A stretch of 64,000 nt of DNA from Acidobacteriota bacterium. Its GTDB lineage: Bacteria; Acidobacteriota; Terriglobia; Terriglobales; SCQP01. Shown in pieces: positions 20,786 to 22,881 of the stretch. The notes below the pieces were generated by a model that searched no databases, had not been told where the DNA came from, and saw nothing but the letters and a program-made list of their open reading frames with translations. Where the stretch lies: positions 1-64,000 of the forward strand of contig JAJYIU010000002.1 of NCBI GenBank assembly GCA_021789895.1. The letters are read 5' to 3'. Each line of letters starts with the position of its first letter. The stretch's first letter is position 1. Position numbers and translations under genes: made by a program.

Positions 20786-21412
20786 TCAAACGTTGATCCC
20801 CAGGCGCGAAAGCAGGTAGGCAATCACCTGCCGCCAGGCCATCCAATCCCAACCCCAGCGGCTGGCGCCGGCCGGCCGCTGCCGGGGGGCGCCGTAGGCG
20901 GTGATGCCGCGCTGGCGAAACAATTGTTCCAGCCGGAACAAATGGTAGCCGTCGCTGACCACGATCACCGTCCGCCAGCCGCGGCGGCGCAGCACCGCGG
21001 TCACCCGGCGCACCGAGGCGGGCGTGGTCGCCGAACGCGGATCGATCCAAACCTGGCCCGCCCGCACCCCCTGGGCGCGCAGCCAGGCCGCCCCCACCCC
21101 GGCTTCGGTGAAGTGAGGGTCGCCGCCCGCCCCGCCGGTAACCATCAGCTCCGGCGCCAGCCCGGCGCGATACAGCGCCAGCGCCCGCTGCAGCCGGCCC
21201 AGCAGCACCGGCGACGGGCGGCCATCGTATTCGGCCGCGCCGAAAACCACGATCGCCTGCGCCGGCTGCAGCCGGTCGCCCCGGCTGGCGCGCTCAACCT
21301 GGTGAAAAATCCAGCCCGCGTACGCGGCTGCGGCCAATCCCAGCAGCAGCGCCGCCGCCCGCAGCCGCCGCCGCCCGCCCGAGCGGCCGCGTATGGCCGA
21401 TGCCGCTTTCAT
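20786..21412 (-). CDS. YdcF/SanA-like DUF218 membrane protein
   Basis: 208 residues with one N-terminal membrane helix (LRAAALLLGLAAAAYAGWI) and an extracytoplasmic DUF218 domain. Family signatures are QAIVVFGAAEYDGRPSPVLLGRLQRAL, LMVTGGAGGD, ATTPASVRR and VIVVSDGYHLFRLEQLF. The ATG overlaps the tsaC stop by ATGA. The family is linked to envelope barrier function (SanA) or nucleotide binding (YdcF), but its activity is unknown. Confidence 0.85.
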   Translation of the reverse strand: MKAASAIRGRSGGRRRLRAAALLLGLAAAAYAGWIFHQVERASRGDRLQPAQAIVVFGAAEYDGRPSPVLLGRLQRALALYRAGLAPELMVTGGAGGDPHFTEAGVGAAWLRAQGVRAGQVWIDPRSATTPASVRRVTAVLRRRGWRTVIVVSDGYHLFRLEQLFRQRGITAYGAPRQRPAGASRWGWDWMAWRQVIAYLLSRLGINV

Positions 21413-22044
21413 AACGCCAGGAACTTCTGCAGCGCCTCGCGCGGAATGACGCCCTCGCGCAGCAGGCGCGGCACCTCGCCGGTCAAATCCACCAAGGTCG
21501 AGGGCTGGCGCGAACGCGCCGCCCCGCCATCCACGATCAGGGGCAGCGCCATGCCCATTTGCAACTCCACTTCCTGGGCGCTGGCGCATTCCGGCATGCC
21601 GCTCAGGTTGGCGCTGGTGCCGGTCAGGGGATGTCCCAGCTCCAGCATGATCGCCACCGCAATCGGCGCCAGCGGAAAGCGCAGCGCGACATGGCCGGTG
21701 TGGGCCGTCACCTTCAGCGGAACCGGGCTGGCCGCCTGCACAATCAGCGTCAGCGGGCCCGGCCAGAACGCTTCCGCCAATGCGTGAAAAATCGGCGGCA
21801 GCCCGCGCGCCAGCTCTTCGGCGGCGGCGATGCCCGGCACCAGCAGCGGCAGCGGCTTGGTGTGCGCGCGCCCTTTCAGCGCATAGATCCGCTCCACCGC
21901 CGCCAGATGAAAGGGATTGGCCGCCAGCCCGTACACGGTGTCGGTGGGCATCGCCACCACTTCCCCCCGCTGCAGGCGCAGGCTGACCTGGCGCACTTTT
22001 TCCGGCTCCGGATTTTGCGCATTCAGCGCCAGCGTTTCACTCAT
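21409..22044 (-). CDS. tsaC: L-threonylcarbamoyladenylate synthase
   Basis: Makes threonylcarbamoyl-AMP from threonine, bicarbonate and ATP for the t6A37 modification of ANN-decoding tRNAs. 211 residues of the YrdC/Sua5 fold: GEVVAMPTDTVYGLAANPF near residue 30, YALKGRAHTKPLPLLVP near 55, WPGPLTLIVQA near 95 and a TGTSANLSG-type segment near 145. It has no C-terminal Sua5 extension, so it is the short TsaC type. A partner of the same pathway, tsaB, lies at 37.7 kb. Confidence 0.95.
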   Translation of the reverse strand: MSETLALNAQNPEPEKVRQVSLRLQRGEVVAMPTDTVYGLAANPFHLAAVERIYALKGRAHTKPLPLLVPGIAAAEELARGLPPIFHALAEAFWPGPLTLIVQAASPVPLKVTAHTGHVALRFPLAPIAVAIMLELGHPLTGTSANLSGMPECASAQEVELQMGMALPLIVDGGAARSRQPSTLVDLTGEVPRLLREGVIPREALQKFLAL

Positions 22045-22153
22045 GCCTGCTCTCGCTGTCCCGGCGAAGCCCCGGCGCGCCGCCGCGGGCGGCGTCTCGG
22101 GCTCGTCCCATTCTAGCCGCGCCGCGCCCGCTATTCCCCGGCGCGCCGCCCAT

Positions 22154-22180
22154 AAAAAAAGGGGACGGAAATCCGTCCCC
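22154..22180 (-). terminator. Rho-independent terminator for the lysine-rich peptide unit
   Basis: A stem GGGGACGGA/TCCGTCCCC (22161-22169 and 22172-22180, effective loop 4 nt) is followed on the minus strand by seven T (22154-22160). It separates the micropeptide transcript from tsaC on the same strand. Confidence 0.85.
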
Positions 22181-22211
22181 TACTCAAACCGGGCTTGCCT
22201 CGAGGGCAAGC

Positions 22212-22268
22212 TTACTTCTTTTTCTTGGCAGTCTTTTTCGCGGCCTTTTTCTTCGTGGCTTTTGCCAT
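22212..22268 (-). CDS. 18-residue lysine/alanine-rich micropeptide
   Basis: Encodes MAKATKKKAAKKTAKKKK, 10 of 18 residues lysine, resembling the tails of histone H1-like bacterial proteins. AGGAG lies 7 nt before the ATG. A promoter at 22334-22362 and a terminator at 22154-22180 on the same strand make this a self-contained transcript of about 170 nt. A small hairpin (CTTGCC/GGCAAG) lies just after the stop. The peptide could bind nucleic acid; alternatively the RNA itself may be functional. I do not know a named family for it. Confidence 0.6.
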   Translation of the reverse strand: MAKATKKKAAKKTAKKKK

Positions 22269-22333
22269 AGCTGTTCTCCTATGTTCGTTCCATCCGCGCC
22301 GCGCCCGAGGGCGCTCTGCGGGGATTGATTGAA

Positions 22334-22362
22334 TGTATAAATTTCACCCCGCGGCCTGTCAA
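22334..22362 (-). promoter_or_regulatory. Sigma-70-type promoter of the micropeptide unit
   Basis: On the minus strand a perfect TTGACA (22357-22362) is followed after exactly 17 bp by TATACA (22334-22339). Transcription would start near 22327 and give a leader of about 60 nt containing a GCGCCC/GGGCGC hairpin before the Shine-Dalgarno. Confidence 0.65.
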
Positions 22363-22464: not shown

Positions 22465-22881
22465 TCAGCCGCGATAGAGCATGAAATAAATCGCCAGCCC
22501 GCTGAGCGAAACGTAGAGCCAGAGCGGCAGCGTCCAGCGCGCCCAGGCGCGATGGCGGGCGAATCGGCGGCGCAGCGCCAGCGATAGCGTGAACAGCGCC
22601 AGCAGCGGAATCAGCGCCGCGAGCGGCGTATGCGTCGCCAGCAGCGTGAAATAAATCCGCCGTCCCCAGCCCGCGCCGGGGTAGCGCACCAGCCCCGCGC
22701 GCCAGTGATGCATCAGGTAGGCAAATAGAAACACCGCTGAAAAAAACAGCGCCGCCATCATGGCGCGGCGATGCGCCCGCACGCGGCGCCGGCGGATCAG
22801 GCCCCAGCCTGCCAGCAGCGCGATCAGGCTGGCTGCGTTTCCGGCCGCGCTCAAGCGCGCCCAATTGTCCGGCGCCGGCAT
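22465..22881 (-). CDS. DUF420 membrane protein
   Basis: 138 residues with four hydrophobic helices and conserved histidines (MHHWRAG, THTPLAAL, RHRAWARWTLP), matching the DUF420 family often found with cytochrome oxidase assembly genes (CtaM/YozB-like). It starts 9 bp after ctaB and is the last gene of the heme A/oxidase-assembly run. A role in oxidase maturation is inferred from family and context. Confidence 0.85.
   Translation of the reverse strand: MPAPDNWARLSAAGNAASLIALLAGWGLIRRRRVRAHRRAMMAALFFSAVFLFAYLMHHWRAGLVRYPGAGWGRRIYFTLLATHTPLAALIPLLALFTLSLALRRRFARHRAWARWTLPLWLYVSLSGLAIYFMLYRG

Follow-up and report, generated by a model that had tools for sequence, protein, structure and literature searches.

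A conserved micro-gene for an 18-residue lysine-rich peptide upstream of tsaC in an Acidobacteriota family

Among bacterial proteins with a histone H1-like tail, AlgP is a DNA-binding protein located at polyphosphate granules, and its C-terminal domain alone comprises 195 amino acids (PMC9239181). Attenuation at the thrL leader of Escherichia coli is relieved when t6A on tRNA-Thr loses its N6-methyl group (PMC4132733). The micro-gene described here recalls both systems; its product is similar in composition to the KPAA tail of AlgP and to H1 C-terminal tails, and the gene lies, terminator included, directly before tsaC. To our knowledge free-standing mini-genes of this type have not been described, and a search of open-licence texts returned no paper for the peptide strings and otherwise only general papers on small or H1-like proteins.

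The micro-gene occupies the minus strand from position 22362 to 22153 of the window (the whole 64-kb stretch of DNA that was analysed), where promoter, leader with hairpin, Shine-Dalgarno sequence, micro-ORF and terminator make up one complete unit. The features of the locus are as follows:

22357-22362, minus strand: -35 element TTGACA, read from the sequence; the same in 12/12 orthologues
22334-22339, minus strand: -10 element TATACA with a conserved T after it; 17-nt spacer; TATACA in 12/12 orthologues
22269-22327, minus strand: 5' leader of ~59 nt, predicted to start 7 nt past the -10 element
22289-22324, minus strand: 5'-terminal stem-loop, MFE -19.2 kcal/mol
22276-22280, minus strand: Shine-Dalgarno sequence AGGAG, read from the sequence; conserved
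22212-22268, minus strand: micro-ORF MAKATKKKAAKKTAKKKK, stop included, from ATG at 22268 to TAA at 22212
22193-22211, minus strand: short hairpin GCTTGCCCTCGAGGCAAGC that follows the stop and precedes the terminator, found in the window and L037 (one genus) and absent elsewhere
22153-22181, minus strand: intrinsic terminator AGGGGACGGATTTCCGTCCCCT plus U-tract; hairpin 22181-22160, 9 pairs, -17.7 kcal/mol
21409-22044, minus strand: tsaC/Sua5 (PF01300, E=1.8e-52), the downstream neighbour
22465-22881, minus strand: DUF420 membrane protein (PF04238), the upstream neighbour, whose adjacency to the unit is not conserved

Every element of the layout proposed in the initial annotation (TTGACA-17-TATACA, ~60-nt leader, hairpin, AGGAG, 18-codon ORF and terminator on the minus strand) was found as described, and its remark that gene callers miss genes this small holds for the micro-gene. 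The 18 codons specify 10 K, 5 A, 2 T and M, giving a net charge of about +10 with neither a fold-forming pattern nor an acidic residue. The predicted RNA measures ~175 nt in the window and 170-212 nt across 23 units of this kind. A consensus-promoter scan of the window missed the promoter, as the scanner demands a final T that is absent from TATACA; we nevertheless take this -10 element as real because it is conserved in every orthologue. A tRNA scan of the window yielded nothing useful.

A DNA search recovered orthologous units in seven further genomes, and reading upstream of tsaC added four that this search had missed (G005, G009, G012 and G013). The unit precedes tsaC in 12/12 genomes of the window's Acidobacteriota family in which tsaC was located; two incomplete family genomes yielded no tsaC and are outside the 12. 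Loss of the ORF with retention of the flanks, which the initial annotation had named beforehand as evidence against a gene, was therefore not what we found. All 12 orthologues share TTGACA-17/18-TATACA (spacer 17-18 nt), a leader of 50-59 nt that begins with a hairpin, a Shine-Dalgarno sequence, an 18-25-codon K/A/P/T ORF and a terminator 16-30 nt past the stop; frame, K/A/P/T composition and stop are kept throughout, and the first 20 nt of the ORF (ATGGCAAAAGCCACGAAGAA) are identical across genera g1, g2, g3, g4 and g6. The gene upstream of the unit changes between genomes. In 9/12 genomes tsaC starts 7-41 nt beyond the terminator hairpin and the interval contains no promoter-like site; in most of the family, therefore, tsaC probably lacks its own promoter and depends on read-through of the micro-gene terminator; in G003, tsaC is 417 nt from the unit.

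This linkage raises the best rival to an autonomous peptide gene, namely that the ORF is the leader peptide of a transcription attenuator, in which ribosomes would stall when t6A or charged tRNA-Lys is scarce, keeping the terminator from acting and so increasing tsaC expression. TsaC makes threonylcarbamoyl-AMP for t6A37 on tRNAs reading ANN codons, including those for Lys and Thr, and 13/18 micro-ORF codons are ANN, which makes attenuation a natural rival. Its appeal is increased by the constant company of leader ORF, terminator and tsaC in 12/12 genomes while the upstream gene changes, by the probable reliance of tsaC on read-through and by the E. coli thrL precedent (PMC4132733). However, a simple MFE test revealed no consistent antiterminator (0-9 bases of the terminator 5' arm paired upstream, in no pattern), the 417-nt gap in G003 fits poorly, and the copies found elsewhere tell against it.

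The window's own genome contains a paralogue (MAAKKKAAKKTAKKKK, contig C19). This paralogue lies downstream of purE in 10/11 genomes and of purD in the other. It has its own TTGACT-17/18-TATATC promoter, its leader forms one hairpin or two, and most genomes show a GGATGCGC...GCGCATCC terminator at its end. The genes that follow it vary (rplU, a gene like that for F0F1 subunit b, or a convergent SMR-type gene), and it is therefore not a leader for one gene, which argues against attenuation. In L030, L022, L026, L028 and L036 an inverted repeat, GTCAAGAAAAA...TTTTTCTTGAC, with arms ~20-30 nt apart, was observed upstream of the purE-linked copy; its right arm covers the -35 element, and the repeat is possibly an operator.

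In the sister family Acidobacteriaceae, units that share the type of promoter, leader and terminator have a CTTGACA-17-CTATACATTC-like promoter (-10 element TATACA or TATACC) and comprise two leader hairpins with diverged stems, GGGAGAATAG, an ORF of the form MATKK...KKKK and a GGGGACGC-type terminator. They stand before rsmE or convergent genes and not before tsaC, again contrary to attenuation. With all parts kept in 12 orthologues and 11 paralogues, and with unrelated neighbours in the sister family, the proposal of a self-contained transcription unit is strongly supported.

Genome contigs were also scanned across phyla with a degenerate SD-ATG...KK[x]AKKKK-stop pattern, which fixes the last eight residues and leaves the region between these and the ATG free; at least 80 loci were obtained. 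In the matches listed, the free region was also nearly all K and A, and comparable SD-preceded ORFs of 11-22 codons came from no fewer than ten bacterial phyla, with a few from archaea. The bacterial matches listed were from Acidobacteriota, Nitrospirota, Alpha-, Beta- and Gammaproteobacteria, Chloroflexi, Gemmatimonadetes, Eisenbacteria, Verrucomicrobia, Planctomycetes and Omnitrophota; archaeal MAGs among them belonged to Woesearchaeota and Thermoplasmatota. At most of the listed loci the short start was the sole in-frame ATG, and a promoter-like site (at least 9/12) preceded 33/81 of the listed ORFs against 6.5 expected. Neighbour genes, assigned from composition-scored gene calls, were conserved within clades (e.g., a convergent nucleotidyltransferase in five gammaproteobacterial-type MAGs) and differed between them. 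Overall, the downstream gene was convergent in 34/91 loci among the matches listed, a further point against attenuation, which was rejected on synteny as a general explanation; as an account of the tsaC-linked unit it fails for most copies and we consider it quite unlikely. Low-complexity sequence of this kind cannot prove common descent across phyla, and repeated origin is possible. Outside the family the distribution is patchy (the strict pattern is present in 21/200 genomes of the order), and the peptide is therefore dispensable or replaceable.

Several features of individual loci were also observed. In L017 (~1328-1525) and on the reverse strand of L088, which are one Acidobacteriota genome and one Woesearchaeota MAG, a second micro-ORF starting MGCC (MGCCTKKTADKKTTTKKTVKKAKKK; MGCCGSSKKAKKPAKKKK) adjoins the Lys-rich one, and the Lys-rich micro-ORF occurs in tandem copies in L080, L049, L017 and L088. 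In five Nitrospira copies (L048, L082, L098, L110 and L115) a common promoter, TTTACT-17-TATAYM, lies 48 nt upstream of the ATG, and the stop is followed by a GAGGAGGCG...CGCCTCCTC hairpin that lacks a clear U-tract. Two pattern matches in viral contigs were set aside because their peptides were not of the K/A type. A looser pattern applied over the phylum returned mostly random ORFs and was useful as background only.

The occurrence of these ORFs far exceeded chance. The KK-x-A-KK codon motif AARAARNCNGCNAARAAR occurred four times in the window's 3.7-Mb genome, in every case within the micro-ORF and one paralogue, and its reversed control had no match in the same genome. Across 200 genomes of the order, the pattern SD-ATG-short ORF-KKKK-stop had 25 matches, most of them K/A-only ORFs, versus 0 for its reversed control. 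In codon alignments, the share of differing sites that fell in synonymous codons was 54% for the tsaC copy and 39% for the purE copy, versus the ~20% that random single changes to these codons would give, a 2-2.6-fold excess that is descriptive, as related sequences are not independent. Length changes in these alignments involved whole codons in every case, so that the frame was retained, and homologue residues were limited to K, A, P, T, S and, rarely, V. We are highly confident that the micro-gene is real; its existence is well supported, while its function is inferred.

The locus is probably an autonomous gene, encoding a polycationic peptide that resembles an H1 tail and binds polyanions. 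A strong sigma-70-type promoter would drive an mRNA of ~175 nt, which the 5' stem-loop cap and the intrinsic terminator would both stabilise, and a good ribosome site would direct synthesis of the 18-residue peptide. Stable mRNAs usually begin with a stem-loop and end in a terminator hairpin, and the presence of both here supports a putatively high expression. The peptide is most likely disordered and abundant and most likely binds a polyanion (DNA, RNA or, for example, polyphosphate) through its charge; it would thereby resemble the C-terminal tail of histone H1, or that of a bacterial H1-like protein, set free from the rest. Electrostatic binding of this kind is the simplest role because about +10 charges are carried on 18 residues with no fold-forming pattern. 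Partial read-through of the terminator into tsaC would probably be incidental.

It is unlikely that the conserved peptide has a specific, non-nucleic-acid partner, as would a ribosome-associated micropeptide (as bTHX or bL37) or a ligand of membrane or polyphosphate. Size and charge would fit, and translation genes are among the neighbours (tsaC, rsmE and rplU), but these neighbours are not the same between clades, and low-complexity composition and variable length argue against a shape-specific site. Homologues of 22-30 residues had no Pfam or NCBIfam match at E<=10, the 18-residue peptide being too short to scan, and no solved PDB chain matched homologues of 22 residues or longer.

The initial annotation had also raised a dual-function RNA, and a regulatory small RNA with active hairpins and a secondary peptide is compatible with the compact 170-212-nt transcripts and with a structured 5' end in 23/23 units, the leader hairpin being kept although its sequence differs. 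Fold z scores reached -5.5 in purE-linked leaders. RNAalifold gave 8 consensus pairs, 4 of them changed on both sides, for tsaC-linked leaders; for the purE-linked leaders, a MAFFT-based run gave 3 pairs, this alignment being too divergent, and the stems are visible in single-sequence folds. However, the ORF is the best conserved block of the unit while leader sequence is poorly conserved, Rfam had no match at the gathering score in the 64-kb window, and tsaC-linked leaders showed no conserved unpaired seed outside the Shine-Dalgarno sequence. A hairpin that is kept while the leader sequence diverges suits an element that stabilises the mRNA or serves its expression better than it suits a base-pairing small RNA, and we regard the dual-function or regulatory RNA as unlikely.

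Although relatives (G013, G005 and G009 of another family genus, and Acidobacteriaceae) encode H1-like K/A proteins of greater length, a chance ORF or the decayed end of such a gene is hardly credible, being contradicted by tsaC synteny, by the promoter, Shine-Dalgarno sequence, frame and terminator conserved in 23 units, by the coding signature, by the 25 versus 0 pattern matches and by the absence of an H1-like coding motif elsewhere in the window's genome.

Beyond the autonomous peptide gene itself, these loci may tentatively be viewed as members of an unrecognised class, present in many bacteria and some archaea, of free-standing 11-25-codon mini-genes for pure polycations that tune nucleoid, RNA or polyphosphate condensation. 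Stand-alone conserved genes of fewer than 25 codons are rarely recognised, and the architecture that recurs across phyla (SD, ATG, K/A codons, KKKK-stop and terminator) makes them searchable by pattern. If expressed, they would bring into bacterial chromatin and RNA biology a very small protein that balances the charge of nucleic acids, and would offer a minimal natural system for the action of an H1-like tail without its domain; the tsaC linkage, for its part, makes the t6A-attenuation idea directly testable. If the class is real, its members amount to polyamines that are genetically encoded, or to H1 tails detached from their proteins.

Compared with known systems, the micro-gene resembles the attenuators thrL, hisL and trpL in that an ORF of ~20 codons, among which control codons recur, leads to an intrinsic terminator, in this case ahead of tsaC; the tsaC copies are co-directional with and upstream of the gene in 12/12 cases, whereas the paralogue and sister-family copies do not keep this arrangement, the simple MFE test showed no consistent antiterminator and other copies of the unit are followed by unrelated or convergent genes. 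With dual-function sRNAs encoding small proteins it shares a short structured RNA, its own promoter, a terminator and an sORF, but no conserved base-pairing region was seen, the ORF is the best conserved part and there is no Rfam match. The hydrophobic membrane peptide typical of type I toxins, which are paired with an antisense RNA, is not encoded here: Met1 and an occasional Val are the sole hydrophobic residues. Bacterial H1-like proteins (Hc1/Hc2 of Chlamydia, AlgP and the PhaF C-tail) have the same basic Lys/Ala/Pro/Thr low-complexity, presumably disordered sequence with variable tail length, and the K/A/P-rich basic tail by which they are recognised is present in the micropeptide. They exceed 100 residues, however, and are further recognised by an N-terminal domain, long tandem repeats or a match to the family's profiles, whereas the micropeptides (11-25 residues overall, 16-25 in the family) have no folded domain and possess their own promoter and terminator. 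The earlier likening to a histone tail thus holds for composition (K/A/P/T/S with no acidic residue), and its action as one is putative. Relative to the C-terminal tail of eukaryotic histone H1, the micropeptide is free, bacterial or archaeal and without a globular domain, and what the two have in common is a KKPAKKAAKK-like composition.
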